From: Spartobacteria bacterium
Lineage (GTDB): Bacteria > Verrucomicrobiota > Verrucomicrobiia > Chthoniobacterales > UBA10450
Direction: 5' to 3'
Assembly: GCA_003167555.1 (NCBI GenBank)
Contig: PMSN01000012.1
Coordinates: forward strand, 143,989-197,488
Length of the DNA: 53,500 bases
Shown here: in pieces, positions 10,180-40,007 of the stretch
Position numbering within the stretch: the stretch's first letter is position 1
Layout of the letters: the number at the start of each line of letters is the position of its first letter
Position numbers and translations under genes: made by a program
Notes under the pieces: model-generated
Told to the model about the DNA's origin: nothing
Seen by the model: the letters and a program-made list of their open reading frames with translations, nothing else
Database searches by the model: none

Positions 10180-10187
10180 GATCCGCT

Positions 10188-24279: not shown

Positions 24280-24294
24280 TCTTACGGATTGCGC

Positions 24295-24741: not shown

Positions 24742-24969
24742 TAGGTAGCCGTGTTTATAATTACTAGGCTGAGTATAAGCACTAACCTTGCCAAGCTCTC
24801 TCCCGGCGCATTTTTCTCTTCAAATGCCTCGACTCACTGACGAGTTCAGCGGGAGGTGCGACGGATTAGGTGCATAATGCGCTTCCGAGACTGATCGCAA
24901 GCTGGAAGCTCGCGCTGCACTTAACCAAAACTGAGTTCGCGCCGGCAGTCCCTGGCAGCCGTGCTGCGC

Positions 24970-25923
24970 TTACGCACCGACGCTGGCGCGCACGGCATCA
25001 AGCTGGCCGGCAGAGCCCAACTTCTCGTTTTTGTGGGCGATGAATTTCGCGTACTCCTCGACAAAGATTTTGCCCGGCGGACGGAAATCAAATTCAGCCG
25101 GATGATCTCGAAAATACTCGCGGTGAACACGGGTCCAGACCAAACGGCCGTCGGTGTCGATGTTCACCTTGGTCACCCCGAGCTTGGCGGCGGGCAGGTA
25201 TTCGTTTTCGTTTACCCCGCGCGCCGAAGGATCGAGCTGACCGCCAGCGGCATTGATACGCTGCACTTCTTCGACCGGCACGCTCGAACTGCCGTGCATC
25301 ACGATCGGCATGCCGGGGATCAGCTTCTTGATCTCCTCGATCACTTCGAAATGGAGGCTTTGCTGGCCTTTGAACTTGTAGGCGCCGTGGCTCGTGCCGA
25401 TCGCAGCCGCGAGCGAATCGCAGCCGGTCCGCTTCACAAATTCGACCGCTTCCTTCGGATTCGTGAGGGAAGCGTGACCTTCGTCGACCTTGATGTCCTC
25501 TTCGACCCCGCCGAGCTGTCCCAACTCTGCTTCCACGCTGATGCCTTTCGCATGCGCGCGATCCACCACGCGTTTTGTGATTGCGATATTCTCCTCGAAG
25601 GACTCGTGGCTGGCATCGATCATGACGGAGCTATAAAAGCCCGAAGCGATGCAATCGTAACAATTTTCCTCGTCGCCGTGATCCAGATGCACGGCAAAGA
25701 TCGCTTCCGGAAACATCTCTTCCGCGGTGCGGACCATCGCCTCCAGCATCCTCTTGTCGGCGTATTTCCGGGCGCCTTTAGAGAGCTGGATGATGAAGGG
25801 CGCGCGGCTTTGCACGGTGCCGCGGAACAATCCGAGCAATTGTTCCATGTTGTTAATGTTATAGGCGCCGATGGCGAACTTTCCGTAGGCGACTTTGTAC
25901 AGTTGAGCGGTGGTAACGATCAT
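24970..25923 (-). CDS. fba: Class II fructose-bisphosphate aldolase
   Basis: A 317-aa zinc-dependent aldolase of glycolysis/gluconeogenesis. The zinc and substrate motifs are 'FAVHLDHGD', 'AAIGTSHGAYK', 'IVMHGSSSVP' and 'KVNIDTD'. The pattern suits the class IIB / tagatose-fructose bisphosphate aldolase subgroup, so activity on tagatose bisphosphate cannot be excluded. The stop codon is at 24970-24972. A short inverted-repeat element lies immediately upstream of its start. Confidence 0.92.
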   Translation of the reverse strand: MIVTTAQLYKVAYGKFAIGAYNINNMEQLLGLFRGTVQSRAPFIIQLSKGARKYADKRMLEAMVRTAEEMFPEAIFAVHLDHGDEENCYDCIASGFYSSVMIDASHESFEENIAITKRVVDRAHAKGISVEAELGQLGGVEEDIKVDEGHASLTNPKEAVEFVKRTGCDSLAAAIGTSHGAYKFKGQQSLHFEVIEEIKKLIPGMPIVMHGSSSVPVEEVQRINAAGGQLDPSARGVNENEYLPAAKLGVTKVNIDTDGRLVWTRVHREYFRDHPAEFDFRPPGKIFVEEYAKFIAHKNEKLGSAGQLDAVRASVGA

Positions 25924-25927
25924 GGCG

Positions 25928-26031
25928 ATATTTCAGATTGAAGATTGTCGATTTCAGATTGGCGCGGCAGACACGCCATCCAAGAGAAGTGCACCTTAAG
26001 TCTGAAATCTGAAATCTAAAATCTGAAATAT
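25928..26031. repeat. Inverted-repeat element, family E (TTTCAGATT type)
   Basis: Each arm holds imperfect tandem copies of TTTCAGATT / AATCTGAAA (25928-25960 and 25999-26031). The outer ends ATATTTCAGATT and AATCTGAAATAT are perfect complements. The element fills the whole space between the aldolase start and the stop of the histidine kinase gene. It is A/T-rich, unlike the GC-rich repeats elsewhere. Confidence 0.8.
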
Positions 26032-26034
26032 TGC

Positions 26035-28035
26035 TCAGTGCCCGTTCGGGCTGGCCGGCAGCATGACGCTGACGGAGGTCCCGTGAGGGTTGGAGTCAAT
26101 ATCGACCCGTCCGTTGTGGTCGAATACCGTTCGTTTCACAATCGGCAACCCGAGGCCCATGCCTCGCGCCTTCGTGGTGCAAAAAGGCGAGAAGACCTTC
26201 TCCTGCAATTCCGGCGCGATTCCCTTGCCGTTGTCCTGCACGGTCACGACGACGCCGCTGGCGTGTTCCCCTTCGCGAATCGGTTTCACCGCCAGCGTGA
26301 TGCGCGGTTTGTTCTGGCCGGAGGTCGCTTCGGCCGCATTGGCGACCAGATGCGCGAACGCTTCGGTAAGCGCCCTCTCGTCGCCGAGGACCTTCGGAAG
26401 GTCGTTAGGCATGGTCGCATCAATCGCGAGGCCATTTTTTGCCACGCGTTCTCGCGCCAGCTCGATCGCCTTCTTAACCGGCGAACGCACATCGAGGGGC
26501 TTCATGATCAATTCCAAGGGATGAGCGAAGTTGTTGATCTGCGTGATGATTTTGTCCAGCCGATCGATTTCCTGGACCACGATCTCATTGAAATCCTTCC
26601 GGAAATCCGCGTCGTCGAAACGTTCCGGAAGAAGTTGGGCAAACGTCTTGATCGCCACGAGCGGATTTCGGATTTCATGGGACATGCTCGCGGCCAGATC
26701 GCTCCAGAACGCAGCCCGATCCACCAGGTCCTGCTTCTGGCGCAACGTGACTTCGGCGGTCAAATCGTGCACGACGGCGACCGCGCCGAGAGGCATTTTC
26801 TTGTCGACCAGGCGTCGTGTTTCGACGGAGAGAGAGCGGCGCGTGGTTGGGTCGATCCATTGCCGGGGTGGAAGATTTTCTTTTGCTTCCAGCGTTTCCC
26901 TTAGAAACGCAGCCAGGCGAGAGCCGACCGCTTCGATGGGTTGATTCAAAGCTTCCGCGGCCGCCACGCCCAGGATCTTCTCGGCGGTCGGATTAAACCA
27001 GCGCACCGTGGCTTCTTCATCGGTCGCGATAATGCCGGGCGGGATCGCTTTGAGGAGAGTTTCCGCGAGGGTTTTTTGAAGCGCGACCTCCTCATAGAGA
27101 AGCGCGTTCTCGAGGACGGTGGAGACATGTTCGGCCAGGAGCATCAACCCTTCGAGATCGTGGTAGTCGAAGCGTTGGCCCGTGACGCGATGGCCGAAAA
27201 AGAGCCATCCGATGATGCGGCCCCGAGCGTGCAGCGGCACGATAACTTCGGCGCCGAAGGTATCGAGCGCACGCCGCATGACGTTGCGCTGAGCCTGGCT
27301 GATGGCCTGGGTGAGGTTGCTTCGGCAAATGAGATGCGCGTGCAGCTCGAACCAGCGGACGAGGGGATCGCGTTCGCCATATTCGATCTCATACGTTTCC
27401 GGCAGGCAGCGCAGCCCAGCCCGCAAACGATAGCGGTCGCTCTGCCTGATCTTCGAAAAAATGCCGACGCGCCCGACGCCGGTGGTGTCGGCTACGCCTT
27501 CGACGACGCTGGCGAGCAAAGCCTCGACGTTATCGAAACGCCGGAAGACGCGCGGAAAACGCAGGAGCGGCATCGATGATTCGCGCCGGTCGGACGCGGC
27601 TTCGATCTGCTGAAGCGGTTGGGACATCGCGGGCGCGATGGCTTGATCTCGCAATTCCCGATTCTCTTGTAACACCCGCAAATGCTCGAAGGCTCGCGCC
27701 ACCAGCGCCTGCAAGCGGCGCCGATCGATTTGCAAATCCTCCGCGGCGTAAATGCCCGCTTGCTCGGCGTCGCGCAATGGCTCGGAGCGCGGTGTGCCGA
27801 AAGCCACCATCAGAATATCAGGCCATTCCTCCTGGATCTGATCGACCAGATCTCGTCCTTCTTTCGCGCGCAAATCCAGCAGAAGCAGCGCGGGGCTGGT
27901 TTGCTGAAGGACCGCATCGAGCCGATCGGGAATGCTCACATGGCGCACTTGGGCCAGCGCGCCCACAAACGCTTTCATGCGCCTGACGAAATCGGTGTCC
28001 TGCGAATAGAGCAGGCAGATCGGGGGCGAGATCAT
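26035..28035 (-). CDS. Cytoplasmic sensor histidine kinase with pseudo-receiver, GAF and PAS
   Basis: A 666-aa soluble kinase. The N-terminal receiver-like domain (about 1-125) keeps an Asp in 'LLLLDLRA' but lacks the paired N-terminal acidic residues and the conserved Lys, so it is probably not phosphorylated. A GAF domain (about 165-315), a PAS domain (about 325-430), HisKA with 'MSHEIRNPLVAIKTFAQL' and HATPase_c with 'DNGKGI' and 'GMGLGLPIVK' follow. The start overlaps the stop of the next kinase (ATGA), so both are made from one transcript. The H-box region is strikingly like that of its partner (shared KTFAQLLPER), suggesting duplication. Confidence 0.88.
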   Translation of the reverse strand: MISPPICLLYSQDTDFVRRMKAFVGALAQVRHVSIPDRLDAVLQQTSPALLLLDLRAKEGRDLVDQIQEEWPDILMVAFGTPRSEPLRDAEQAGIYAAEDLQIDRRRLQALVARAFEHLRVLQENRELRDQAIAPAMSQPLQQIEAASDRRESSMPLLRFPRVFRRFDNVEALLASVVEGVADTTGVGRVGIFSKIRQSDRYRLRAGLRCLPETYEIEYGERDPLVRWFELHAHLICRSNLTQAISQAQRNVMRRALDTFGAEVIVPLHARGRIIGWLFFGHRVTGQRFDYHDLEGLMLLAEHVSTVLENALLYEEVALQKTLAETLLKAIPPGIIATDEEATVRWFNPTAEKILGVAAAEALNQPIEAVGSRLAAFLRETLEAKENLPPRQWIDPTTRRSLSVETRRLVDKKMPLGAVAVVHDLTAEVTLRQKQDLVDRAAFWSDLAASMSHEIRNPLVAIKTFAQLLPERFDDADFRKDFNEIVVQEIDRLDKIITQINNFAHPLELIMKPLDVRSPVKKAIELARERVAKNGLAIDATMPNDLPKVLGDERALTEAFAHLVANAAEATSGQNKPRITLAVKPIREGEHASGVVVTVQDNGKGIAPELQEKVFSPFCTTKARGMGLGLPIVKRTVFDHNGRVDIDSNPHGTSVSVMLPASPNGH

Positions 28036-30530
28036 GCCGCGGCCACCTCCTGCTTGAAGCGGACGAGCGGCAGCAAAATATGGAACGAGGTTCCTTTCGC
28101 GAGCTCGCTCTCCACTTCAATCTGCCCGTCATGCTCCTGGATGATGCCGTGCACGACGGATAACCCGAGCCCTGTGCCGTAATCTTTCGTCGTGAAAAAC
28201 GGATCGAAGACATGCGGAATATCCTCGCTCTTGATGCCTTCGCCGTTGTCGCGGATCGTGATGCGCAAGACCTCATGCACATCGCCATTTGTGCCGGTGA
28301 TGGCGGCCACCCATTCGTCCGCCGGGCGGATTTCGGTGGAAACGGTCATCTCGCCGCCGCGTTTCATGGCGTCCATGGCGTTGAGGAAAAAGTTAAGAAA
28401 AACTTGCTCGAGCTGATCCGCATCGGCCCGGATTGTATCGACATCGGCCCGCCAGGAACGAGTTAATTTGATTTCTTTTTGGTAAAGCCGGTGCCCAAGA
28501 AGCTGGAGCGATTTCTCGAGCACGGAATGAACGTGCATTGGCTTCAGCACCGGCTTGGCCGGACGCGCAAAGCGCAGGAGCTGATTGACCAGTGAATCGA
28601 TGCGATCGATTTCGTGCCCGATCAGGTTCGAGAACGTTTCCCGGAAATCGGAGTCTTGATAACGTTCCGGCAGGAGCTGCGCGAACGTCTTGATCGAGAC
28701 GAGCGGGTTCTTGATCTCGTGCGCCATGCCCGCGGAAAGCGTGCCGAGGCTGGCGAGCCGGTCGCTGCGGCGAATCTGCAATTCGAGGCGCTTGAGTGCT
28801 GTGATGTCCGTGAGCACGACGAGCACGCCCAGCATCTCGCCCTGTTGGCCATGAAAAACTGAGCTGCTCGCCCGCACCACGACGCTGCCATTTTCTGCCT
28901 CCAGAATAAGCTCGCGATCTTCCTGGCGTTCCCCGGAACGAAGCGTCTCGCGCACCAGTTCACGAAGCGACTCGGGGAGATCGTCAACCGGCCGATCCAG
29001 AAGATCTTCGGATTTCGCGCCTGTGATCTGCCCGGCTTCGTTGTTAAAAACGGTGATGCGCCCGTCGGCGCCCGCGGCGATCACGCCGGTGGTAAGATTC
29101 TGCAAAAGTATCTCGTTATAAATCTTTGCGTTTTGCACTTCGGTAAAGAGCTGCGCGTTATCGACCGCGATGGCCAATTGCCCGCAGAGGACCTGGAGCG
29201 CGTTCTGTTCGACGGTGCCGTAGATCCGTCCCGAGAGGCGGGGGCCGAGGAGCATGACGCCGGCGAGATGTTCGCGCGCGAAGATGCCCATCGCCACCGC
29301 GATGTGCAGCGACGCCATCTGTTTCTCGACGCCTTCCAACTCTGGTGTCTGCCGCATCCGGTGCAGCTCGTCGAGGACGAGAGGCTGTTGGTAAGTTTCG
29401 AGGTAGCTGATGGTCGCGTCGTCTTTGCTTAGAGCCAGAAGCGAATCTCGGCGTTCTGGCGAAGGCCGCGGGTACTGCTGGGAGAATCCCTGCTGAACCG
29501 GCAGCAGGATGAACACATTATCGGTCGCGACCGCACCGGCGATTGTCCTGGCAAAGCGTTCGAGCAAATCCTCGAGCGTTGTGACCGACTTCAAGATCGC
29601 CGCCGCCTCATTCATGGTGGAACGAAAATCCAGCCGGCGCGCGCCAAGGAAAAGCTTATCCGCCAGCGATCGAGAAACGCCGCGCGCTGGAGCCATCGCA
29701 AAAGCGATGACGATCGCCGCTGCGACGTGCGCCACGGAACGTGCGTCGCCAAGCATAGGGATGAGTGCCGTCGAAACCAGCCACCAAACCAGACCGTAGA
29801 GAGCGAGAAGATATGCGGCCAGAACTGCGTAGGACGTAACGCGTCGGATAAAAAATCCGACCTCCATAATTTTCCGGGTCGAAATGCCGTAAGCGATGAT
29901 GAGGCTGAAAACCACCACCCTGAAGGGAGCAAACGTGACGGCGACGGCACGCTCGACGAACGGGGTGAACGCGACCAGGGCGAATAAGGTCGCGCTGCCC
30001 GCGATCAGAAACTGCAGTTCCACCCTCTGCATTCCACTGGCGCGGCGAAGATCTCTCAAATAAAGAACGACCACAAGCGCCACGGAGATTGCAAAGAACC
30101 AAAAATAAAGTGGAAACAACGGGCCGTAGATCGCTCCCGGAATTTGTCCCGTCCGCAGTTCGACGGAGCGCAAGAAGAGCGGTGTGTAACACAACCCGAT
30201 TACCAACAGACTGGGCGCCAGCAACAGGAAGGAACGCTTTCCGATCTCACGCCATCCCCTCTCCCGGTGGACGATCGCCAGTCTTAACAGATCAAATCCA
30301 TTTACGATCAACAGTCCGATCGACGAGGCGTTCCGAATCCACAGCTCAGCCTCCTCCGCGCGAATGGCGTTATGAGCGAAATGGAGCGAGAGGAGCCAAC
30401 CGCAAATTATGGCCGAAACCAGCAAGAAGCTTTGATTGGCATAATTCCTCGGATTCCCCCGAAACACTGCGAGCCCGAGCCCCAGCTGCATGAAAAGCGC
30501 CAACCACAGCGGGAGGCTCTGCGAATTCAT
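28032..30530 (-). CDS. Membrane sensor histidine kinase (multi-TM, GAF, PAS)
   Basis: An 832-aa kinase. About eight hydrophobic segments in residues 1-290 form a membrane sensor. A GAF domain (about 320-470), a PAS domain (about 480-590), HisKA ('MAHEIKNPLVSIKTFAQL') and HATPase_c ('DNGEGI', 'GTGLGLSVVHG') follow. The plan resembles PrsK-type membrane kinases of EPS/PEP-CTERM systems, but no PEP-CTERM genes are seen. It is the upstream gene of the pair. No response regulator is adjacent in the operon, so the output partner is unknown. Confidence 0.88.
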   Translation of the reverse strand: MNSQSLPLWLALFMQLGLGLAVFRGNPRNYANQSFLLVSAIICGWLLSLHFAHNAIRAEEAELWIRNASSIGLLIVNGFDLLRLAIVHRERGWREIGKRSFLLLAPSLLVIGLCYTPLFLRSVELRTGQIPGAIYGPLFPLYFWFFAISVALVVVLYLRDLRRASGMQRVELQFLIAGSATLFALVAFTPFVERAVAVTFAPFRVVVFSLIIAYGISTRKIMEVGFFIRRVTSYAVLAAYLLALYGLVWWLVSTALIPMLGDARSVAHVAAAIVIAFAMAPARGVSRSLADKLFLGARRLDFRSTMNEAAAILKSVTTLEDLLERFARTIAGAVATDNVFILLPVQQGFSQQYPRPSPERRDSLLALSKDDATISYLETYQQPLVLDELHRMRQTPELEGVEKQMASLHIAVAMGIFAREHLAGVMLLGPRLSGRIYGTVEQNALQVLCGQLAIAVDNAQLFTEVQNAKIYNEILLQNLTTGVIAAGADGRITVFNNEAGQITGAKSEDLLDRPVDDLPESLRELVRETLRSGERQEDRELILEAENGSVVVRASSSVFHGQQGEMLGVLVVLTDITALKRLELQIRRSDRLASLGTLSAGMAHEIKNPLVSIKTFAQLLPERYQDSDFRETFSNLIGHEIDRIDSLVNQLLRFARPAKPVLKPMHVHSVLEKSLQLLGHRLYQKEIKLTRSWRADVDTIRADADQLEQVFLNFFLNAMDAMKRGGEMTVSTEIRPADEWVAAITGTNGDVHEVLRITIRDNGEGIKSEDIPHVFDPFFTTKDYGTGLGLSVVHGIIQEHDGQIEVESELAKGTSFHILLPLVRFKQEVAAA

Positions 30531-30684
30531 TGCGGCAGGAGATCAGCGATCAGAGTAATGCCAGCGCTCCATTTTGGGCGACACGATTCTGCGTTCACCT
30601 TGGGCGGAATGACCTTATGGCTGGACATGGAGCAAAACCTCAGATGAACGTCGTGTGGTCCTAACATAGCAATCGTCGAACCAT

Positions 30685-31938
30685 TCATGCGGCTTGGTCC
30701 ATGACTGGCCGCTCCACTACGAGCGAACTGGTGCTCCCCCCCAAGCCTCGAACGTTCATCAATATACAATCGAGTCTCGCCTTTCGCGGTCGACCAGGGA
30801 CAAAGTCCAGATCACAGGCCGGATCTTCCACTTCATAGTTCGCAGTGGGCACAACCATTTGATCGCGAAAGCTCAAGGCACACGCCGCGATCTGCAGCGG
30901 TCCACCCGCCGCCAAAGGATTCCCCGTTACGCCTTTGATCGAGCTGATCGGAATCGAGTACGCACGCTTACCGAAAACCTCTTTGATGTAGTGGACTTCA
31001 GCTGCGTCCAACACGGGATGTCCCGGGCCATAAGCGGAAATGTAGTCGACCTCGTCGATCGTGCGCGCGGCATTTGCCAGCGCAAGTCTCATCGTCTCCA
31101 CGAGACCCGATCCCGGCGCTTCCGGAGCGTGGTCCCGCTGTCTCGCGTAACCAGAAATCTCCAGATAGATTTGCGCGCCGCGGGCTTGCGCTCGCTCCAT
31201 GTTTTCCAGGACGAACATCCCGGCACCCTCGGAAATTACACCGGAGTCGCGCTCGAGGTCGAAAGGCCGGCTCGCTCTTTCGGGCTCGCCGTTGCGACAG
31301 GAACTGAGTCCGGTCGACGTAAACGCAGCGAAAGTGTGTTTCGTGATCGGGGCATCGGCTCCCCCTGCGATGGCGAGTTCGGCCTCGCCTGATTGAATCA
31401 TTTTCGCGGCGAGCGCGACGGCATCCAGGCCCGATGGACACGCAGAAGAAACAGTCGTGGCATGCGCGTTGGCGCCAATTCGATCCGCGATAAAATTTGC
31501 CGCTGCTTGAGGTGTCAACGCCCCGACAGCGGTGGGAGATATGCCGCGCAGCCCGCGACGTTCAAACTCGCTGATGGAATTCTCGATAATATCCATCGCA
31601 CTGGTGCTCACACCCACGACAACCGGCGTCGGACTTGGCAGATCGGTTTCGCAGATTGTCAAGCCCGCGTCCTGTATCGCCATCACGGCGGCGGCGTACG
31701 CGAGCTGCGTATGCCGGGCCAATCGGTTCGGCTTAAGTTCCGCTTCGATGTAATCTCGCGGATCGAAATTCTTTACTTCTCCGGCAATCCGGCTCCGAAG
31801 ATCGCTCGCGTCAAAAAATGTAATCGGCCCGATGCCGCTGCGGCCGGCGAGGAGCGACGACCAAAAGGATTCGAGTCCGGTGCCGTTGGGCGCGAGCACT
31901 CCCATGCCGGTGATAACAACTCGATTGCGTCTGTTCAT
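30685..31938 (-). CDS. Beta-ketoacyl-ACP synthase-like protein with altered catalytic His residues
   Basis: A 417-aa KAS I/II-family protein. The fold markers are intact: start 'RVVITGMGVLAPNG', nucleophile Cys167 in 'VSSACPSGLDAVAL', and Lys335 in 'SSIKGVTGN'. Aligned to E. coli FabF, however, the first catalytic His (NAHGTST) is Tyr303 in 'SAYGPGH', and the second (TGH) is Asn340. The usual Cys-His-His triad is therefore Cys-Tyr-Asn. The oxyanion/Gly-rich C-terminal loop is 'GLGGSTSSL'. No other fatty-acid or polyketide genes are adjacent. It could be a non-condensing acyl-binding or chain-length partner, or an enzyme with changed chemistry, rather than housekeeping FabF. Confidence 0.85.
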   Translation of the reverse strand: MNRRNRVVITGMGVLAPNGTGLESFWSSLLAGRSGIGPITFFDASDLRSRIAGEVKNFDPRDYIEAELKPNRLARHTQLAYAAAVMAIQDAGLTICETDLPSPTPVVVGVSTSAMDIIENSISEFERRGLRGISPTAVGALTPQAAANFIADRIGANAHATTVSSACPSGLDAVALAAKMIQSGEAELAIAGGADAPITKHTFAAFTSTGLSSCRNGEPERASRPFDLERDSGVISEGAGMFVLENMERAQARGAQIYLEISGYARQRDHAPEAPGSGLVETMRLALANAARTIDEVDYISAYGPGHPVLDAAEVHYIKEVFGKRAYSIPISSIKGVTGNPLAAGGPLQIAACALSFRDQMVVPTANYEVEDPACDLDFVPGRPRKARLDCILMNVRGLGGSTSSLVVERPVMDQAA

Positions 31939-32199
31939 GGTCTAAGGGGAGAGTAAAATAATTGGTTAATCAGTAAGACCAACGGTGCATTCTAAGCATT
32001 ACATTAAATGGAGTCATTATCTTTATCGCACACTTTCACCCAATGTTATTCACCAAATTTCCGACTTATTCACAAGTTAATCTTGTGTCCGGCAAAAAAA
32101 GTTTCATCTTTGAACTCGAAGTTGAAACCAAGCGCGGCGGGCTTTTTGCCAAAATACAATGCATCAGCGGCACGCGCTTAGCTTCTTTTCCCTGCCAAA
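31939..32199. other. A/T-rich divergent intergenic region
   Basis: A 261-bp spacer between the divergent ketosynthase and receiver-kinase genes. It is clearly more A/T-rich than the surroundings, with runs such as AAAATAATTGGTTAAT and CAAAAAAAGTTTCATC. It should hold both promoters. No specific operator or RNA structure was recognised. Confidence 0.5.
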
Positions 32200-33351
32200 A
32201 TGACCGTCACCACCGAACTCCCTCAAGTCCTGGTCATTGATGACGAAATGGGTCCGCGCGAAAGTTTGCGGATGCTCTTGAAGCCCAATTACCGGGTCCA
32301 CACGGCCGATAACGTGGAAGCCGGCCTTCGCATCCTGCGTGAGAAAAAGCCGGACGCCGTGATCAGCGATATCCGCATGCCCGGGACCAGCGGCATCGAA
32401 GGTCTGCGCAAAATTCGGGAGATCGATCCGCATGTTGCCGTGATCATGCTAACTGGTTTCGGCGCGCTCGAGACTGCGAAGGAAGCGTTGCGCCTGGGCG
32501 CGAACGATTACATCAGCAAGCCATTCGATGCGCGCGAAATGCGGGAAGTGATCAGCCGCAATGTTGAGCGCACCCGGCTTCATCGGACCGGCGTGAACGC
32601 GGCCACGGAGATCAAGGAATTGAATAATCGCTTGCTCAAGGAGCTGGCTCAAAAGGAACGGCTCGCCTCGTTAGGCCAGGCCTCCGCCGAATTCGTCCAC
32701 GATCTCGGCAACCCGCTCACGATCGTTTGGGGTTACGTCCAGCTCCTGGCCAAGAAACTGGAGGAATCCGAGAAAGAAAACGGCGCGGCGAACCAGACGT
32801 CGAAAGAGCTCAACATTATCGAACAAAATGTGCGGCTCTGCCGCGAGCTGCTCACGATGTGGCAGAGCTACGGGAGCGTTGAAGCCTCGCCGCACAAACC
32901 AATCTCGGTCGCGCAAATTGTCAGCGAGGTGGTGAAAGGCGTGAGCCCGATGGCCGTGCAGAACGGGGTCCAGCTCGACTGCGAGATCTGCGACGATCCC
33001 TGTACTCTTCTGGGCGAGTCCGTGCAGATCACACGCGCCATTCAAAATGTGATCATCAACGCGCTCCAAGCGTCCGCGGAGAAAAAGGGCAAGGTCGCCG
33101 TCAGTTGCGAGCGCAAGGATTTTTATGTCGACGTGCGGGTGCAGGACACCGGCTACGGAATTACGCCGGCGCAAATGGCGAAAATCTTTGATCCTTATTT
33201 TACGACCAAGCAAGGCAAGAGCGGCACTGGCCTCGGTCTCTACATCACGAAGAAAGTCCTGGAAGATCACAACGGCTCGATCAAAGTGGACAGCACACCG
33301 CAAGTCGGCAGCACGTTTACGATCCGCCTGCCACTCCTGAATAATAATTAG
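32200..33351 (+). CDS. Receiver-histidine kinase protein
   Basis: A 383-aa soluble protein with the order reversed relative to a typical hybrid kinase. An N-terminal receiver comes first (acidic pair in 'VLVIDDEMG', phospho-Asp in 'AVISDIRMPG', Thr in 'MLTGFG', Lys in 'YISKPFDARE'). A HisKA-like region follows with the acceptor in 'EFVHDLGNPLTIVWGY', then HATPase_c ('DTGYGI', 'GTGLGLYITKK'). The receiver could regulate its own kinase or accept phosphate from one of the two kinases encoded just upstream on the other strand. It ends 21 bp before an inverted-repeat element. Confidence 0.87.
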   Translation: MTVTTELPQVLVIDDEMGPRESLRMLLKPNYRVHTADNVEAGLRILREKKPDAVISDIRMPGTSGIEGLRKIREIDPHVAVIMLTGFGALETAKEALRLGANDYISKPFDAREMREVISRNVERTRLHRTGVNAATEIKELNNRLLKELAQKERLASLGQASAEFVHDLGNPLTIVWGYVQLLAKKLEESEKENGAANQTSKELNIIEQNVRLCRELLTMWQSYGSVEASPHKPISVAQIVSEVVKGVSPMAVQNGVQLDCEICDDPCTLLGESVQITRAIQNVIINALQASAEKKGKVAVSCERKDFYVDVRVQDTGYGITPAQMAKIFDPYFTTKQGKSGTGLGLYITKKVLEDHNGSIKVDSTPQVGSTFTIRLPLLNNN

Positions 33352-33372
33352 CGGAGGACAGGATTGCCCTTC

Positions 33373-33460
33373 CTGGAGCGGCGGTCTCTGACCGCCCAAG
33401 ATCGAGAGCGAAGAAAAGCTCTTTGGCCGCGCGGTCGGCGGTCAGAGACCGCCGCTCCAG
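33373..33460. repeat. 88-bp inverted-repeat element, family B
   Basis: Perfect 24-bp arms (33373-33396 and 33437-33460, beginning CTGGAGCGGCGGTCTCTGAC) flank a 40-bp interior. Each arm is also partly self-complementary around GGTCTCTGACC. A single related arm is at 21060-21081. It lies between the receiver-kinase gene and the LanB-like gene. Confidence 0.9.
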
Positions 33461-33520
33461 AAGAAAGCTCGCACTACACTTTAACTTGTCACCGCCAGCG
33501 CGTTCCGTTCTGTTGCAGGA

Positions 33521-35944
33521 GTGGCTGGAAGTTATCGTGTTGCGCCGATTTTTTTGATTCGCATGGCCGGTGCGCCATTCGAGCCGCTCGAAAGGCTCGC
33601 CACCACCAGGACGGTCGCGCTCGCGCGTGAAGTAGTCGTTAGGCGAGGAGAATTTTCCCGCGCGAAAGCAGAGGTCGAACATCTCCTGCGGCGCCGCGGC
33701 CATGGGCTTTCCGAGGAATTGTTTCGCGCCTGGCGCAAGGCGATTCGCTCCGGCACGATGCCGCCCGCGGCGGATGCTCCCTCCAGTGCGTTCGCGGATT
33801 GCTGGCAGTGTGCGGCGGACTTGGCCAAAGCAGAAGAGCAGATGAAACAATCGCTCGAGCAGGAACTCGATCGCGCGCGCCGGGCCCTGCTCGACTCAGC
33901 GGGCCAATTATTGCCGCCGTATCTCGTGTTTGTCAGCGAGGGCTTGCGCGAACGTCTGGCGAAACAAAGCGCTTTCGATCTCGGGGCTCTTCCGCCGCGC
34001 AAGAAACAAGACCGCGCTCACGAGCGGCATTTGCTTTTGTATCTCCAGCGCATTTGCGCGAAGAACGATTCCCTGAGCGAGTTTGGACCGGAAGGCTGGG
34101 GGACCATCGCGGGCGCACCTCGCGCATTGGAACTCGCGCCGGATCCTGGCGTCGCGGCGCGAGAGACTTTTCTGGAACGCTGGGCCGCGCATGGCGCCGC
34201 CGCCGCGCTGAACTCCGACCCGGAGATCCGACTCGAACTTTCGCCTCGACTCCACCCCAACGGGCGCATCGAGGGCGACGAATTCATTTTCACCGATGCA
34301 GCGGCGACGGCGCCGCTCGATCCGAAGCGTGCTGAGATGATCCGCCGTTGCGATGGCGCAACGCCGGCGCATTTGTTCGGCGACGAAATCGCGGCGCTCG
34401 AGGAACTCGCCGCGCAAGGCATGATCCGTTGGGAAGTCGAAGTGCCCGCGCTCGCTCCTCACGCATTCGATGTTCTTTTATCCGATGTTACGCGCTGGCG
34501 CGACGGTCCGGTGCGCGCGCGCTGGCTCGAAGTCCTTCAGCCGATTGCGGCGTTGCCGACACGATTCGCGCGGACAAAGGAGGCCGCCTCCCGCGCCGAA
34601 ATCATGGATGAAGCGCGGCGCCAGTTGGAAAATCTCGGCGCGGCCCGGACCGCTTCCGGCCGTTTCCTTTACTCGGCGACGAATCCCATCGGCGAAGAAT
34701 GTTTTCGCGAGTGCCACTTTTCGATCGGCGAGGAACTGATTAATGAGGTCGCGACGGATGCCGAGCCGTGGCTCGATCTCTGGCGGGACAACTACGCGTT
34801 TGCCGCCAGCCGGGTCGCGGCGGGATTGCGCGCGCTTTTCGAAAAAGCTCCGCTGCAGAATGGCGCGCTCCCGTTGCCGGCATTTTTGCGGCACTGCGAA
34901 ATGCTGAAGATGCCGCTCACGGGTCCCGCTCTCGTGGCTTTTGCCCACATGGCGTTTCAGGAAGTGAAGGCCGCTTTTCGGCAGCGAATGCAAAATCGTC
35001 CGGACGAAGAGGAATGGGAACTCACGGTCGATGATTGCCACTTCATTCGCCGAGACTTTCCGTACGAGAAGTTCGATGAGTTCACGTATCCCTCGGCCGA
35101 TTTGCAACTCGAAGCCAGCTCCGTGGAAGCAGTCGCCCGTGGCGATTATCGATGGATCCTGGCGGAACTTCATCCGCCGGTCGCGCTGCTCCATCACGGT
35201 TTCTACTGGAGTTGTCCCGATAAAACGGCGCTCCGGGATGCGCTGGCGGCGACGGTGAAAGGTCGACCGAGTTTTCACTTTGGTTTTTTCGCAGCCGATT
35301 TTACCGCGGCCACAGCCGTGCGGCAGCTCGATGCCACTCCGGAGACGATGAGTTTTGTTGCACCGCAGCGGGGCGATCCGCGCTGGCGAGTTATCCCGCC
35401 TGCTGAAGTCGAAGTTTTCGTCGAAGAAAAAAACGGCGACGTCTGTCTGCGCGCGCGCGGCTCGCGCGAATACCTCGGCTCGTTCGCCCGCGCCTGGGTG
35501 ATTCCGCTTGGCTTTCATCCGTTTCATTTCGGCCGCGCGCCGCACATGCCGCGGTTACGTTGCGGGCGGGTCATCGTGCAGCGCCGCTCCTGGACGGTCA
35601 CGCTCGAAGAACTCGGAGCAGGGGACTACACGGGCATTTCGCGCGATCTTCTGCTCGCGGTCGAGCGGCTGCGCGCCGAGAAAGGATGGCCGCGCCACAT
35701 TTACATTCGGCCAAGCGAGCAGGCCTTGCGCAGAAGCGGCGCCGAAGGCCGCGATAAAGACACCAAGCCAGTTTATGTCGATCTCGAAAGTTATTTGTTC
35801 CTCGAAATCTTCCACCGCTGGCTGAATAAAGCGGGCGAGTTGGAAGTGAGCGAGATGCTGCCCGATCCCGATCACTTGCTCTGGCGGGAACCGGACGGCC
35901 GTCGCAGTTTCGAGCTGCGCACCCAGATCGTGCCACGCGAATGA
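33521..35944 (+). CDS. LanB-like protein (lantibiotic dehydratase N-terminal/glutamylation domain only)
   Basis: An 807-aa protein covering the whole N-terminal domain of lantibiotic dehydratases. It opens 'YRVAPIFLIRMAG', has the family hallmark 'YLQRICAKNDSLSEFGPEGW' at about residues 174-193, and ends with 'YVDLESYLFLEIFHRWL' and 'EMLPDPDHLLW'. Full LanB enzymes (about 1000 aa) also carry a C-terminal elimination domain (SpaB_C), which is absent here and from the neighbours. In this superfamily the N-domain uses aminoacyl-tRNA: split dehydratases glutamylate Ser/Thr, and PEARLs add amino acids to peptide C-termini. The start is a GTG at 33521, keeping the conserved N-terminus. It overlaps parA by 4 bp. 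No precursor peptide was identified. Confidence 0.87.
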   Translation: MAGSYRVAPIFLIRMAGAPFEPLERLATTRTVALAREVVVRRGEFSRAKAEVEHLLRRRGHGLSEELFRAWRKAIRSGTMPPAADAPSSAFADCWQCAADLAKAEEQMKQSLEQELDRARRALLDSAGQLLPPYLVFVSEGLRERLAKQSAFDLGALPPRKKQDRAHERHLLLYLQRICAKNDSLSEFGPEGWGTIAGAPRALELAPDPGVAARETFLERWAAHGAAAALNSDPEIRLELSPRLHPNGRIEGDEFIFTDAAATAPLDPKRAEMIRRCDGATPAHLFGDEIAALEELAAQGMIRWEVEVPALAPHAFDVLLSDVTRWRDGPVRARWLEVLQPIAALPTRFARTKEAASRAEIMDEARRQLENLGAARTASGRFLYSATNPIGEECFRECHFSIGEELINEVATDAEPWLDLWRDNYAFAASRVAAGLRALFEKAPLQNGALPLPAFLRHCEMLKMPLTGPALVAFAHMAFQEVKAAFRQRMQNRPDEEEWELTVDDCHFIRRDFPYEKFDEFTYPSADLQLEASSVEAVARGDYRWILAELHPPVALLHHGFYWSCPDKTALRDALAATVKGRPSFHFGFFAADFTAATAVRQLDATPETMSFVAPQRGDPRWRVIPPAEVEVFVEEKNGDVCLRARGSREYLGSFARAWVIPLGFHPFHFGRAPHMPRLRCGRVIVQRRSWTVTLEELGAGDYTGISRDLLLAVERLRAEKGWPRHIYIRPSEQALRRSGAEGRDKDTKPVYVDLESYLFLEIFHRWLNKAGELEVSEMLPDPDHLLWREPDGRRSFELRTQIVPRE

Positions 35945-36714
35945 AAATCATCGCGATCGCAAATCAAAAAGGCGGCGTCGGCAAAACGACGACCGCGGTG
36001 AACCTCGGATTCGCCCTCGCGGAAGAAGGTGTGCGCGTCCTGCTCGTCGATCTCGATCCGCAGGGAAATGCCACCAGTTCGCTCGGTATGCAGGAACTCG
36101 AAGGCGAAAGTTTATATGAACCGCTTCTGGGTGGTGTTTCCGTCGCCGAGAGAATTCTGCCGACGCGACTGCCGCGCCTCTTCATCGTGCCGGCCGATCT
36201 CGATCTCGCCGGCGTCGAAGTGGAAATCGCGCGGATGAGCGATCATTTGACCCGGCTGAAGGAAACGCTTCTGCCCCTGCGTGCGGACGACACCTTCGAT
36301 TACGTGCTGCTCGATTGCCCGCCCTCTCTCGGCATCCTGATGACGAACGCGCTCGCCGCGGCGGACGAACTGCTCACGCCGATTCAATGCGAATATTTCG
36401 CGCTCGAGGGACTGGTGAAAATCGTGCGCGTCATTGAACAGGTGCGCGGATCGGGCGCGAACGATAATTTGGAAATCGGCGGGATTGTCATGACGATGTT
36501 CGACAGCCGGACGAACCTGAGCGCGCAAGTCGTTGCCGATGTGCGCGAACATTTCGGCGAACGCGTCTATGAAACAGTGATTCCGCGGACAGTCCGCTTG
36601 AGCGAAGCGCCCAGTTTCGGCAAATCTGTTTTCGAACACGATTCGAGTGGCGCTGGAGCGCGGGCGTATCGCGCGCTCGCGAAGGAATTCATCCAACGCC
36701 ACGGATCGGCTTAG
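35941..36714 (+). CDS. ParA/Soj-family ATPase
   Basis: A 257-aa deviant-Walker ATPase. The motifs are 'NQKGGVGKTTTAVNLG', 'VLLVDLDPQGNATSS' and 'YVLLDCPPSLGILMTNAL'. It is of chromosome-partition ParA type by length and motifs, but no parB follows; the next gene is convergent. The ATGA overlap with the LanB-like gene implies translational coupling. The role may be chromosome segregation with a distant ParB, or positioning of another cargo. Confidence 0.88.
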   Translation: MKIIAIANQKGGVGKTTTAVNLGFALAEEGVRVLLVDLDPQGNATSSLGMQELEGESLYEPLLGGVSVAERILPTRLPRLFIVPADLDLAGVEVEIARMSDHLTRLKETLLPLRADDTFDYVLLDCPPSLGILMTNALAAADELLTPIQCEYFALEGLVKIVRVIEQVRGSGANDNLEIGGIVMTMFDSRTNLSAQVVADVREHFGERVYETVIPRTVRLSEAPSFGKSVFEHDSSGAGARAYRALAKEFIQRHGSA

Positions 36715-36740
36715 CTGCTGCCCCAAGCGGGAAGCCTGCG

Positions 36741-37085
36741 TTACTTCTCGCTGACTGCGCCGCGGTAATGCAGTGCGCGAACTTTCTCCATCGTCACCAA
36801 TCCTCCGGTGATCATTCCATCGAGCACGGGCAGGAAGCTCTGGATTTTTTCCTCGCTGTCGACGATCTCGATGATCATCGGTAAATCCATCGAGAGCCGC
36901 AGGATTTTCGACGTGTGCATCCGGCTCGACTTGCCGAAGCCAATCGGGCCGCGCAACGCGGTCGCACCGGCCAGATGCATCTCTCGCGCTTTCAAAATGA
37001 TCGCTTCATAAAGCGGCCGATGCTCGTAGCGATCGCTTTCGCCGATGAAAATCCGCAGGAGCGTGGCTTCGTGCGGGATTTCCAT
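36741..37085 (-). CDS. DUF190 family protein (fluoride-export associated)
   Basis: A 114-aa small protein of the DUF190 family (PII-like ferredoxin fold): 'LLRIFIGESDRYEHRPLYEA', 'GATALRGPIGFGKSS' and 'DLPMIIEIVDSEEKIQ'. Members are commonly encoded beside crcB and are thought to modulate fluoride export. The start overlaps the GNAT stop (TGATG). It is third in the crcB-GNAT-DUF190 unit. Confidence 0.85.
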   Translation of the reverse strand: MEIPHEATLLRIFIGESDRYEHRPLYEAIILKAREMHLAGATALRGPIGFGKSSRMHTSKILRLSMDLPMIIEIVDSEEKIQSFLPVLDGMITGGLVTMEKVRALHYRGAVSEK

Positions 37086-37603
37086 CAGCGCCCGTTCCTT
37101 TCTTCGCGATTGATGGCGAAAACAATCGCCGGGAAACCTCGAAAGGTAGTTTGTTTCTCCGGTCTCATTCCATTCTTCTCCGCCACGCGACGCGACGCGA
37201 TGTTATCCGGATGGATGAGTGAGATCACGCGTGAAAGCTCAAGGTCGTTGAAAGCGTGATCGCGGACCGCGCAGGCCGCCTCGGTCGCGAGGCCACGCCC
37301 CCAGTAAGAAGGATCGAGACGGTAACCGATCTCCAGCTCTTCCATATCGTCGACGTTTTGGAGGAAGAACCCGCAGTAACCAACCAGATGTTCGTCGCCG
37401 CGCACGATCACGGCGAATTGCGATGGCAACGCGGCCCGGTCGCGGGCCCGCACTTTCTCGAGAAAGCTCGCGGTCTGCTCGCGGGAAAAAACGCCGAGCG
37501 AAAAACGCATGAAATCGGCGTTGGCCATGAGCGCCGACATTTCATCGAGATCGCTTTCCGCAAACGGGCGCAGATCCAGGCGCTGGGTTTGGAGCGTAGT
37601 CAT
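37085..37603 (-). CDS. GNAT family N-acetyltransferase (RimJ/RimL-like)
   Basis: A 172-aa acetyltransferase. The start is 'LQTQRLDLRPFAESDLDEMS' and the acetyl-CoA loop is 'YWGRGLATEAACAVRDHAF', followed by 'LIHPDNIASRRVAEKNGM'. This matches the RimJ/RimL-like branch that acetylates protein N-termini, amino sugars or small molecules. The substrate is unknown. It sits between crcB and DUF190, separated from crcB by 6 bp. Its presence inside a fluoride-export pair is not standard. Confidence 0.85.
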   Translation of the reverse strand: MTTLQTQRLDLRPFAESDLDEMSALMANADFMRFSLGVFSREQTASFLEKVRARDRAALPSQFAVIVRGDEHLVGYCGFFLQNVDDMEELEIGYRLDPSYWGRGLATEAACAVRDHAFNDLELSRVISLIHPDNIASRRVAEKNGMRPEKQTTFRGFPAIVFAINREERNGR

Positions 37604-37609
37604 ACGTAT

Positions 37610-38005
37610 TCACCGGCTGATGGCGGCGGCACAAAGATGTCCGAGCCAGACCGCGCCGAGGCAAAGCGCCACCGAGAGGACCACGTTCGCCGCGGCGCGC
37701 AACCAATCGCCCTCCATCCCGAGGTTCAGCGTTTGTAGACTGAAGGAAGAAAAGGTTGTGTATCCGCCGCAGACGCCGGTCATGAACGCCAAGCGCCATT
37801 CCGGGCGAACCAGGATGCGGCCTTCGGTTCCCGTGTAAGTGGCGAAGAAGCCGATCACGAGACAGCCGCTCACGTTCACGAGCAAGGTGCCGAAAGGAAA
37901 TGTTTCGCCGAAACGCCGGCCGACGACGCCGGAGAGCCAGTAACGCGCCACGCTCCCGAGCGCACCGCCGCCGGCGACAAGCAAGTAATCCAGGCGATTC
38001 ATCAT
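37610..38005 (-). CDS. crcB: Fluoride exporter CrcB/Fluc
   Basis: A 131-aa four-helix protein. It begins 'LLVAGGGALGSVARYWLSG' and has the conserved 'FPFGTLLVNVSGCLVIG' and 'GVCGGYTTFSSFSLQTL' blocks (Asn and Phe of the fluoride pathway visible). It forms dual-topology dimers in the inner membrane. First gene of the three-gene unit. I looked for a crcB-motif fluoride riboswitch in 38006-38126 and did not see one. Confidence 0.92.
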   Translation of the reverse strand: MMNRLDYLLVAGGGALGSVARYWLSGVVGRRFGETFPFGTLLVNVSGCLVIGFFATYTGTEGRILVRPEWRLAFMTGVCGGYTTFSSFSLQTLNLGMEGDWLRAAANVVLSVALCLGAVWLGHLCAAAISR

Positions 38006-38126
38006 CGTTCATGTAGCAAAACCAAATGCGCGCGCCTAGTTTTAATCAAGGAATCGCGGCAGCGCGCGTCCGCGCATTTTGTGGCGGGCCTCCGCGCCGC
38101 GCTCAACGCTTCCAAAAAAAAATAAA

Positions 38127-38669
38127 CTAAGGCGTGGCTGACGCGGCAGGCGAAGGAGCGGGTGAAGCTGAGGGCGACACGGAAGGAGAAGAGGACGCTT
38201 CCGGCTTGGGCGATTTCTTTTTCTCGGCCTTGGCCTTCTCAGCCTCAGTCATCGGCCCGAGCTTGACCTTCTTCGCTTCCAGCGTTCCATCGGCGGCTTT
38301 CCAATAGGAGCCGCGGGCCTCTTCGTTTACCAACACGTCCTTCATCGTCGCAGGCATGCCGGCCTTCGAGAGGAGGGTTCGTTCCGTAACCTTAAACACG
38401 CGCGATTTTTGCTTTCCCGCGATGGTAAAGGTCTTCGCCTTTTGATCGACCGCCGAGATCATTCCATGAAAGGAGATGGCCCGCGTCGTCGGAGCGAAAG
38501 GAGTAGGGGATGGCGTAGCTTTCGCGGCCGGCGATGGGCTCGCTGCCGGCGAGCTGCTTGGCTTGGCGGCTGGTGAAGGTGATTTCTTCGTGGCAGCGAA
38601 CGCTGCGAGTGGCGCGGATAAGGCAAGGGCCGTGACGCACGCGAGGAGGAATTGCAGTTTGTTTTTCAT
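38127..38669 (-). CDS. Secreted Ala/Pro/Ser-rich protein
   Basis: A 180-aa exported protein: signal peptide (about residues 1-25, ending AAFA), a low-complexity Ala/Pro/Ser/Lys region, then a small beta-type domain (about 60-135, 'ISFHGMISAVDQKAKTFTI') resembling the OB-like modules of DUF5666-type secreted proteins. The tail is again Ser/Pro/Ala-rich. The frame opens at 38744, but the ATG at 38669 gives the signal peptide. Function unknown. Confidence 0.7.
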   Translation of the reverse strand: MKNKLQFLLACVTALALSAPLAAFAATKKSPSPAAKPSSSPAASPSPAAKATPSPTPFAPTTRAISFHGMISAVDQKAKTFTIAGKQKSRVFKVTERTLLSKAGMPATMKDVLVNEEARGSYWKAADGTLEAKKVKLGPMTEAEKAKAEKKKSPKPEASSSPSVSPSASPAPSPAASATP

Positions 38670-38725
38670 GGGCAGTTTCTGGGTTGAGGAATTGAGTCTT
38701 ATCGAGTTGGAGTCGAGAAAGCAAT

Positions 38726-38831
38726 GGTGGATCGCGCGCTCCACAGCCTGCCCGCCGTGGAGGGCGCGATGCCGATAGATCCCGGCTTCGCCGGCATAGC
38801 TAACATCGAGCGACGGAGCGCTCGATCCACC
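38726..38831. repeat. 106-bp inverted-repeat element, family D
   Basis: The arms GGTGGATCGCGCGCTCC (38726-38742) and GGAGCGCTCGATCCACC (38815-38831) are complementary with one mismatch. The right end touches the stop codon of the asparaginase gene. An inner palindrome is CCCGGCTTCGCCGG. No coding capacity. Confidence 0.85.
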
Positions 38832-39943
38832 TAGTCCTCCGGCTGGCCTTCCAGGAGTGGCTCACACGGAACTGTCGCCGGTCCTTTCTCGGTGCAGACA
38901 GCATAGCTCGCCGACGGATACATCGAGACTCCCGCGTACTCTCCCTTCGCATTCAACGCGTAGAAATTGATGTTGAAATTCGGGTTGCCCTTGTTGTTGA
39001 GGAGCCGCTTCTCCACGGTGTTCCCCTTGATCCGCCGGCAAGCCTCGAGTCCCGCGTCTTTCGGGTGCATTCCTTTGCGCATGTTCTCCACGATCAGGAA
39101 CGAACAAAGATTGTAGAGGTTCGCTTCCCCGCGTCCGGTCGATCCCGCCGCGCCTACTTCGCCATCGACGTAGAGACCCGCGCCGAGAATAGGTGAATCA
39201 CCCACGCGCCCCGGGATTTTCCAAGCCAGACCGCTCGTCGTCGTGACGCCGCAAATTTCACCTTTCGCATTGATCCCATCGCAATTGATCGTCCCGTAAA
39301 TGTGCTGCCGATCGATCAATCCCTCCGCCACCATTTCCATCATGACACGCCGGCCGGCTTCCGCGCGCTTCTGCGGGTCGAGGTAATGCGACGGATCGGT
39401 CCGGCGTTTCCATTCCAGCCAAAGCTTCCGTGATTCCTCCGTGTTAAGGTCATCCTCAATCTTGAATCCAAGTCCGCGCGCGAAACTCTGCGCGCCGGCT
39501 CCGACGATGAGATGATGGTCTGTCTGTTCCATGACTGCCTTGGCCACGAGTGAAGGTGTGCGCACGCCTTCGAGCGCAGCGACACCGCCCGCGCGCTTCT
39601 TCGGCCCGTGCATGCAAGAGGAATCCAACTGCACGATCCCATCCGCGTTCGGCAACCCGCCGTAGCCGACGCTGGTATCGAGTGGATCAAGCTCCACGAT
39701 GTTCACACCCGCGATCAACGCGTCGAGCACATCGGTTCCTTGCGTCATCATGCTGAAAGCCTTCTGCACACAAGTCATGTCACCGCCATTCTTAAACTTG
39801 TTGCCATTGGCGGAGGAGATCACGACCGGCTTGATGGATTTAGAATTCATAATGGTAGGAGCCTGGGCAAAGAGCGCGCGCGGAGTCACAGCCGCCGTGA
39901 GACCCACGGCCGCGCTCGAGTAAACAAAACGGCGTCTATTCAT
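38831..39943 (-). CDS. N4-(beta-N-acetylglucosaminyl)-L-asparaginase (glycosylasparaginase)
   Basis: A 370-aa Ntn-hydrolase of the asparaginase type 2 family. The N-terminus is a Tat signal (MNRRRFVYSSAAVGL ... ALFAQ). Autoproteolysis should occur before the Thr in 'IYGTINCDG', which becomes the nucleophile of the beta subunit. Downstream the substrate loop 'GLAWKIPGRVGDSPILGAG' and 'GSTGRGEANL' are conserved. It would cleave the GlcNAc-Asn bond of glycoasparagine outside the cytoplasm. Unlike a generic L-asparaginase, the motif set fits the glycosylasparaginase branch well. Confidence 0.9.
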   Translation of the reverse strand: MNRRRFVYSSAAVGLTAAVTPRALFAQAPTIMNSKSIKPVVISSANGNKFKNGGDMTCVQKAFSMMTQGTDVLDALIAGVNIVELDPLDTSVGYGGLPNADGIVQLDSSCMHGPKKRAGGVAALEGVRTPSLVAKAVMEQTDHHLIVGAGAQSFARGLGFKIEDDLNTEESRKLWLEWKRRTDPSHYLDPQKRAEAGRRVMMEMVAEGLIDRQHIYGTINCDGINAKGEICGVTTTSGLAWKIPGRVGDSPILGAGLYVDGEVGAAGSTGRGEANLYNLCSFLIVENMRKGMHPKDAGLEACRRIKGNTVEKRLLNNKGNPNFNINFYALNAKGEYAGVSMYPSASYAVCTEKGPATVPCEPLLEGQPED

Positions 39944-40007
39944 GCCCCATCAAAGCACGGTTTGGTGCTCCCTGGCAATGAGCAACGTGTGCGCAGAAGC
40001 GGCCAGC

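Follow-up and report, generated by a model that had tools for sequence, protein, structure and literature searches.

A probable LanB-type ligase with PEARL residues in a ketosynthase and histidine kinase gene block of Chthoniobacterales

Which reaction can be expected of a lone lantibiotic dehydratase (LanB) N-domain, and with which partner would it act? This question is raised by two overlapping genes of a Spartobacteria bacterium (order Chthoniobacterales, family UBA10450), found in a stretch of 53,500 nucleotides that was analysed as a whole and is called the window below (assembly GCA_003167555.1, contig PMSN01000012.1, positions 143,989 to 197,488). The first gene, here the ligase (33521..35944, + strand, GTG start), encodes a protein of 807 residues (P0001), and its open reading frame (ORF) overlaps by 4 bp that of a ParA/Soj-like ATPase of 257 residues (35941..36714, + strand; PF13614, 189 bits), both ORFs existing as described in a first-pass annotation of this DNA. 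That annotation had regarded the ligase as either half of a split dehydratase or a PEARL (peptide aminoacyl-tRNA ligase), i.e. an ATP- and aminoacyl-tRNA-dependent amide ligase, and had taken ParA as a hint of another role. Based on the results presented here, we lean, a little beyond even chance, towards an explanation in which a PEARL-type ligase and a ketosynthase (KS) make a small amidated molecule, which is probably a signal for a histidine kinase (HK).

The LanB-type domain and its PEARL residues

The ligase is matched by Pfam PF04738 (Lant_dehydr_N) with 56.5 bits (cut-off 28), as are 30 of its 31 orthologues at E <= 0.01. Its AlphaFold2 model, built from a 31-sequence input (pLDDT 78.7, pTM 0.77), retrieved only LanB-type structures from the PDB at E < 0.001 (GodF, TbtB, MibB, NisB and MadB), and VIA-align superimposed it on the glutamylation domain of TbtB with a Z of 24.5 over 684 residues (rmsd 4.5, 17% identity). 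As this alignment covers ligase residues 8-804, the N-domain is complete, as had been proposed. A match to D-Ala-D-Ala ligase (VIA Z 5.9) was set aside as too weak to prove an ATP-grasp fold. The ORF does not result from chance, because full-length orthologues occur throughout the family and dN/dS lies between 0.10 and 0.19 (0.109, 0.099, 0.115 and 0.19 in four pairs), which indicates purifying selection. Close pairs, L077/L090 among them, have diverged more quickly in the N-terminal third of the protein (residues 1-300) than towards the C-terminus.

No elimination domain is fused to the ligase, and neither the elimination domain PF14028 (Lant_dehydr_C) nor the LanC-like cyclase domain PF05147 was found in the source genome, which is 98% complete, so that the lack of both reported in the first-pass annotation holds. 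Among 61 genomes of the family, PF05147 is present in three, and PF14028 in a single one (G010), where it belongs to a full LanB gene of its own; the elimination domain does not, therefore, co-occur with the ligase as a partner. The G010 gene lies in a class I lanthipeptide-like locus comprising the full LanB and two LanC-like genes (L123, 4705-11375).

With regard to the active site, the PEARL BhaB7 exhibits Asp558, Glu575, Glu813 and Arg815 at ATP/Mg, Arg715 and Phe755 in contact with the adenine, Arg34 near the carboxylate, and Tyr205, Arg208, Gln201, Arg197 and Arg429 at the tRNA 3' end, and several such residues were mutated and tested in BhaB7 or TglB (PMC11962472). R14, R177, D527, E549, R688, E798 and R800 of the ligase correspond, by alignment and spacing, to Arg34, Arg208, Asp558, Glu575, Arg715, Glu813 and Arg815, respectively, and Y174 and Y728 were placed in the same comparison. 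The spacing agrees, with 40 residues from 715 to 755 in BhaB7 and 40 from R688 to Y728 in the ligase. R177, D527, E549, R688, E798 and R800 are invariant in the 31 orthologue rows of alignment A2, Y174 is Y or F across these rows, and R14 is nearly invariant, its single gap belonging to a shortened row whose full frame keeps R14. In the 12-row alignment A3, which includes Streptomyces relatives 21-23% identical to P0001, R14, R177, D527, R688, E798 and R800 are invariant and E549 is found in 10 of 12 rows. In contrast, a true full-length LanB of the family (P0013, from G010) exhibits V, N, L and I at the positions of D527, E549, R688 and R800, and thus lacks four of the five ATP-site residues; it keeps R14, R177 and E798. 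Because the PEARL ATP-site residues are invariant in the ligase, because four are missing in a true LanB and because no elimination partner co-occurs, the ligase is likely to be of the PEARL type and not half a dehydratase, an assignment made by residues and not by tree placement.

Residues 236-305 (34226..34435, + strand) resemble an RRE, the recognition element of ribosomally synthesized and post-translationally modified peptides (RiPPs). The similarity to the RRE structures of PbtF (8t19, Z 6.3) and TruD (4bs9, Z 6.4) is modest, such Z values not being convincing alone, and weak PqqD sequence matches were obtained for the same stretch. It is kept in 25 of the 31 rows and missing in six, and a tree of these rows, calculated with the RRE columns excluded, shows three changes, forced by its starred branches, which we read as losses. 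In a pair of orthologues without the RRE, dN/dS is 0.115 and purifying selection thus continues. A leader-reading domain that several lineages could lose speaks against a peptide substrate guided by a leader. PEARLs are described as working without an RRE-binding peptide segment, and the RRE seems dispensable in them (PMC11962472).

The absence of a nearby precursor gene, also stated in the first-pass annotation, could be followed as far as the gaps between ligase and ParA: none of those inspected by eye in 23 loci (0-190 bp) holds a precursor-like ORF, and precursors were not searched for genome-wide. The larger gaps contain repeat-like insertions. L077, L090 and L099 each repeat the ParA start sequence at the beginning of the gap, and GC-rich, repeat-like DNA comes next, which looks like the insertion of an element where ParA starts.

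The gene block and the ParA neighbour

The ligase stands, in most loci, in a block whose one strand carries HK6-HK5-KS and whose other strand carries RRHK-ligase-ParA, in this order. In the window, these genes encode the histidine kinases HK6 (26035..28035, - strand; GAF, PAS and kinase domain matches) and HK5 (28032..30530, - strand; domain matches, with a seven-transmembrane (7TM) sensor, GAF, PAS and kinase), a FabF-like KS (30685..31938, - strand; PF00109/PF02801) and RRHK, a receiver and histidine kinase protein of 383 residues (32200..33351, + strand; PF00072, PF00512, PF02518). Under strict thresholds, the ligase is present in 38, the KS in 37 and RRHK in 35 of 197 genomes of the order. 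Ligase and KS occur together in 36 genomes, and the exceptions (ligase only in G007 and G009, KS only in G028) are all at contig ends. All 35 genomes with RRHK have the ligase, and the three ligase genomes without RRHK are fragmentary there. HK6 lies beside HK5 in most loci with enough DNA.

In G016, the block is scattered: an RRE-less ligase (locus L101) and ParA are on contig C106, KS and HK5 on C97, and RRHK on C118 (L101, L153, L154). None of the KS, RRHK and HK genes was found in the 6 kb upstream of the L101 ligase, and HK6 was not seen in the G016 stretches. As the parts are kept though scattered, with KS and HK5 still paired, this genome favours a unit; that the ligase is still beside ParA there speaks for the first-pass annotation.

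Of 41 loci, 38 have ParA downstream of the ligase in the same orientation, so that the adjacency is conserved in relatives, and the Walker A motif of ParA is intact in all 38. The gap, counted from the end of the protein match with the stop codon included, is at most 7 bp in 24 loci and 27-190 bp in 14. Of the three loci without ParA, L071 and L079 end at contig ends, and L070 carries a second, partial ligase copy near a contig end. This copy (10035-10571) corresponds to the ligase C-terminus, with 79% identity to the window protein, and lies downstream of the full gene.

The genus g5 of the same family was informative in this respect. ParA was present in all nine genomes examined around it, six of g5 and three of other families, and seven stretches from the six g5 genomes match the gene order of the window. 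GlmS-GlgC-MreC followed by ParA-GNAT is complete in four of them (L133, L134, L136 and L138) and partial in the other three, and GNAT stands beside ParA in six of the seven; in the window, this GNAT acetyltransferase gene is near the right side of ParA (37085..37603, - strand; domain match). HK6, HK5, KS, RRHK and the ligase gave no match at E <= 1e-5 in any of the seven stretches. Because ParA is kept in these g5 loci without the ligase and its four neighbours, it appears independent of the ligase and is probably a conserved neighbour outside the functional unit. The left border of the block in the window is a fructose-bisphosphate aldolase-like (FBA) gene (24970..25923, - strand; read from the translation alone), and decayed FBA remnants lie beside ParA in two of the seven g5 stretches (L133, 9211-9434; L138, 6853-7376). 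The source genome has two ParB_N matches, both on other contigs than ParA, and no ParA was seen when the ORFs listed around the stronger one were read to a distance of about 1.5 kb. Taken as a whole, it is fairly likely that the ligase works with the KS and the kinases rather than with ParA.

Orthologues of the ligase occur in 44 of the 61 family genomes and in 13 of 14 genera, and the 17 genomes without it, which are of unequal completeness, are all 13 of g5 and four others. The 38 carriers in the order all belong to this family. A profile of A3, Streptomyces relatives included, was run over 387 phylum genomes with at most two candidates scored per genome; it gave three matches, all in the same family, and no donor. 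Because only same-family genomes were found, an origin of the ligase by transfer is likely. A scan of named genomes gave the 41 ligase loci, whose titles are all Verrucomicrobia, Verrucomicrobiota, Chthoniobacterales or Spartobacteria and which nearly all come from metagenome-assembled genomes; depths in cm and the word 'palsa' in the titles suggest a soil habitat. Seven PF04738 matches in Verrucomicrobiota outside the family (L116-L122) were rejected as short, partial and under the cut-off, and in L116, L117, L119 and L121 the six-frame match lies inside an ORF that, by eye, begins like MutS, so that these are probable false positives.

The best matches outside the family are Streptomyces 'lantibiotic dehydratases', with 23-26% identity over 79% of the query. 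Five such regions were opened: three contain non-ribosomal peptide synthetase (NRPS), adenylation or acyl carrier protein (ACP) genes, one contains LanB-like and hypothetical genes, and one has no such neighbour. A plasmid search for characterised PEARLs returned only Streptomyces, Kitasatospora and Nonomuraea records, and no paper on this locus or on any LanB-ParA pair was found among the open-licence papers that the searches listed.

The ketosynthase, the sensor and their variation

When aligned to FabF, the KS exhibits Cys-Tyr-Asn (Cys167, Tyr303 and Asn340) instead of Cys-His-His, both catalytic histidines being replaced. Among the orthologues covering each position, Cys167 is conserved in 30 of 30, Tyr303 in 28 of 28 and Asn340 in 28 of 28. 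Six further KS-like matches are present in the source genome; the four strongest are Cys-His-His, and the two weakest were left out. Given the known mechanism of FabF, the loss of both histidines suggests that the KS does not perform decarboxylative condensation and would rather catalyse acyl transfer or another reaction. Of 21 HK5 orthologues, 12 match HisKA_7TM in the sensor (about residues 1-240; 29811-30530, - strand) at E <= 1 (best 1.6e-10), the window copy not being among them. The AlphaFold2 model of the sensor is a multi-helix bundle (pLDDT 75.6), for which a fold search gave nothing at E <= 0.001; weak GPCR-like 7TM rows were not used as evidence.

Six segments of the block were compared over the 22 loci carrying all of them, and DNA identity was calculated in windows of 250 bp; unexpectedly, the KS and the sensor half of the adjacent HK5 behave as a hypervariable cassette. 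Between L097 and L103, identity amounts to 95% for the ligase, 96% for RRHK and 98% for the HK5 kinase half, against 75% for the KS and 73% for the HK5 sensor half. At the DNA level, this pair shows 56-83% identity across sensor and KS and mostly 90-99% outside, apart from two 250-bp windows beyond ParA (71% and 88%); the divergence includes the whole KS and stops near the border between sensor and kinase. The cassette segment of L096/L095 is at 53-73% versus 65-94% outside, and that of L077/L090 at 46-74%; outside it, this last pair is mostly at 70-90%, and identity falls again, to 55%, where the ligase begins. L069/L074 shows no dip, and L077 compared with the window shows a mild one only. 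Allelic KS and sensor sequences in a conserved background are thus clear in L097/L103 and less clean in two more pairs.

Two alleles recur, each in two contigs: by KS and sensor, L095 goes with L097 and L096 with L103, but by ligase the partners are L095 and L096 on the one hand and L097 and L103 on the other. The dS of the KS is saturated in two of four pairs (ligase dS 0.28 and 0.49 there), and its dN/dS is 0.03-0.04 in the two pairs with measurable dS. Among 17 pairs with a mean flank distance below 0.13, which derive from few lineages and are not independent, the KS differs by more than 0.2 in nine; in those nine, the sensor distance is 0.328 vs 0.227 and the ligase distance 0.209 vs 0.204. 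Of nine partial Mantel tests, the KS-sensor one gave an r of 0.45 (p 0.0002), and the KS-ligase one (r -0.01) was not significant, nor were four others. In a signalling reading, the KS would be a synthase and HK5 its receptor.

Proposed mechanism and alternatives

Starting from the fold, the conserved residues, the co-occurrence, the synteny, the absence of the block from ParA-bearing relatives and the cassette polymorphism, we infer a chemistry, a substrate, a product and a signalling role as follows. In an ATP-grasp-like site, the ligase would probably use ATP to activate a carboxylate; attack by the amine of an aminoacyl-tRNA would then link the amino acid to the acceptor. It would act with the other products of the block, HK6, HK5, the KS-like enzyme and RRHK, rather than with ParA. 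The acceptor is probably a small acid and not a leader-guided RiPP precursor, plausibly involving the Cys-Tyr-Asn KS, and the product, a small amidated molecule, would probably serve HK5 as a signal. Taken separately, the chances of a small, non-RiPP acceptor are evenly balanced. A cell-cell signal with exchangeable specificity is a more tentative proposition, which we consider doubtful. Equally speculative, when taken jointly, is a previously undescribed signalling system of soil Chthoniobacterales in which the KS and the PEARL-type ligase would make an aminoacylated small molecule, the 7TM kinase would sense it, and KS and sensor would be exchanged between lineages as specificity cassettes (pherotypes).

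Known systems share parts of this arrangement. The PEARLs TglB, BhaB7 and AmmB have the LanB N-domain fold without an elimination domain, the ATP-site residues and, as putative counterparts of Y174 and R177, the Tyr/Arg that bind the 3'-CCA (papers including PMC11962472); the ligase differs in that no carrier peptide is seen nearby, the RRE is missing in several lineages, it is linked to a KS and kinases, and two tRNA-contact residues mismatch by spacing. SnaE, a PEARL of an NRPS-PKS (polyketide synthase) cluster of Stackebrandtia nassauensis, is described as an enzyme whose substrate is a non-ribosomal acid and which has no carrier peptide (PMC11212132); three of the five opened relatives lie in comparable NRPS/ACP surroundings. 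SnaE thus resembles the ligase as a LanB-like enzyme in a cluster without such a peptide, but no NRPS is seen here, and the single FabF-like KS lacks both catalytic histidines. With the split LanBs TbtB and GodF, which act with a separate elimination protein (PMC11962472), the ligase shares the fold, whereas that protein is absent from 60 of the 61 family genomes.

The pattern of variation resembles that of the Vfm and ComQXPA loci, to which we do not claim that the block belongs. The quorum-sensing locus Vfm of Dickeya has variable stretches with an identity of 51-76%, set in a background of 93-99%, and the variation of biosynthesis genes tracks signal specificity (PMC9306890). Among the genes in these recombining regions are likewise one for an oxoacyl-ACP synthase (vfmW) and a membrane gene with a putative co-sensor role; in contrast to our block, Vfm is a 26-gene cluster with adenylation domains, its polymorphic membrane gene is an ABC permease, and no PEARL is named in the account of the cluster used here (PMC9306890). 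ComQXPA also combines a synthesis gene with a kinase that is variable in its N-terminal membrane domain and conserved in its cytoplasmic part, but the signal there is a modified peptide and the enzymes differ (PMC4008528).

Several observations weigh against the proposed explanation. The BhaB7 correspondences were drawn by alignment, motif, spacing and paper numbering, with no characterised PEARL sequence in the alignment; by spacing, the places of Gln201 and Arg197 are taken by H170 and A166, both mismatches, and Arg429/Tyr426 are unmapped. The usual substrates of PEARLs are peptide carriers. As the genes form one contiguous run in nearly all loci, a single deletion or transfer could account for their co-occurrence, and in the scattered block of G016 the ligase stayed with ParA and not with the KS. 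KS and HK5 sensor are adjacent and one recombination tract would move both, and the partial Mantel tests were also significant for KS-ParA (r 0.35, p 0.0004), sensor-ligase (0.38, 0.0002) and ligase-ParA (0.32, 0.0036). Finally, no DNA-binding output regulator or exporter was seen in the block, the ORFs of the window not all having been scanned for transporter families.

In one alternative, a pearlin pathway with an unlinked precursor, the ligase would be a PEARL and would extend a carrier peptide of ribosomal origin whose gene lies in another part of the genome. The peptide substrates of most known PEARLs, the retention of the RRE in 25 of 31 rows and the ability of PEARLs to act without an RRE-binding peptide segment (PMC11962472) agree with this, but no precursor-like ORF was seen by eye in the ligase-ParA gap of 23 loci, no pearlin-type maturation enzymes were seen in the block, and three of the five opened relatives are in NRPS/ACP clusters; we regard it as unlikely. 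Much less probable still is the glutamylation half of a split dehydratase with its elimination partner elsewhere, so that of the two options of the first-pass annotation the PEARL is favoured. TbtB and GodF, which are among the best solved matches, are glutamylation-domain proteins, as this option would predict, whereas PF14028 occurs in one family genome only, there in a full LanB gene accompanied by LanC genes, and at four positions invariant in the ligase the LanB used for comparison has other residues. An association with ParA, for instance the modification of ParA/ParB or of a cell-pole factor, is improbable. In its favour, the two genes are neighbours on one strand in 38 of 41 loci, with at most 7 bp between them in 24, and the pair is intact in G016, where the rest of the block is scattered; against this, ParA persists in g5 and in other families that have no ligase, the ligase co-occurs with KS and RRHK, and the repeat-like insertions in the larger gaps mean that tight spacing is not required. 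The hint drawn from ParA in the first-pass annotation thus survives in part: the role is probably not lanthipeptide synthesis, and ParA as a partner is weakly supported at best.

The strongest competitor concerns the cassette and not the ligase, and falls only somewhat short of an even chance: the polymorphism of KS and HK5 sensor would reflect ordinary recombination or relaxed constraint, the block being a regulated metabolic pathway. Histidine kinase sensors generally vary faster than kinase domains, the KS and HK5 genes are adjacent, the LanB-type gene itself has variable windows, the sensor differs even in some closely related pairs whose KS has changed little (L091/L093), and the flanks are uneven in two of the three dipping pairs. 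On the other side, the L097/L103 divergence takes in the whole KS and ends near the sensor/kinase border, two alleles each recur in two contigs, the dN/dS of the KS is 0.03-0.04 in the two pairs with measurable dS, and KS and HK5 are still adjacent in G016. The signalling explanation is directly testable by virtue of its swappable KS/sensor cassette. PEARLs in the cited papers belong to natural-product pathways; if the explanation is true, aminoacyl-tRNA chemistry extends to a probable signal, by way of a PEARL-type ligase kept across most of a family, tied to a non-canonical KS and to kinases, in bacteria known here almost only from metagenomes.

Some further features of the window can be mentioned. 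A conserved element with the pattern CTTGTCA - 12 nt - GTTnTGnTG precedes the ligase start (33485..33514, + strand); its CTTGTCA is kept in 18 of 20 aligned loci, and it is promoter-like. The gap between RRHK and ligase (33352-33520) contains a long imperfect inverted repeat (GGAGCGGCGGTC...GACCGCCGCTCC), which is repeat-element-like, and Rfam gave no match at gathering scores over positions 24000-40000. Beyond the block, three large minus-strand proteins (40094-45700, 49026-50678 and 50758-53217) have a common C-terminal module, in which a motif like NISTRxRVxxGDxVxIGGFIITG was read by eye.

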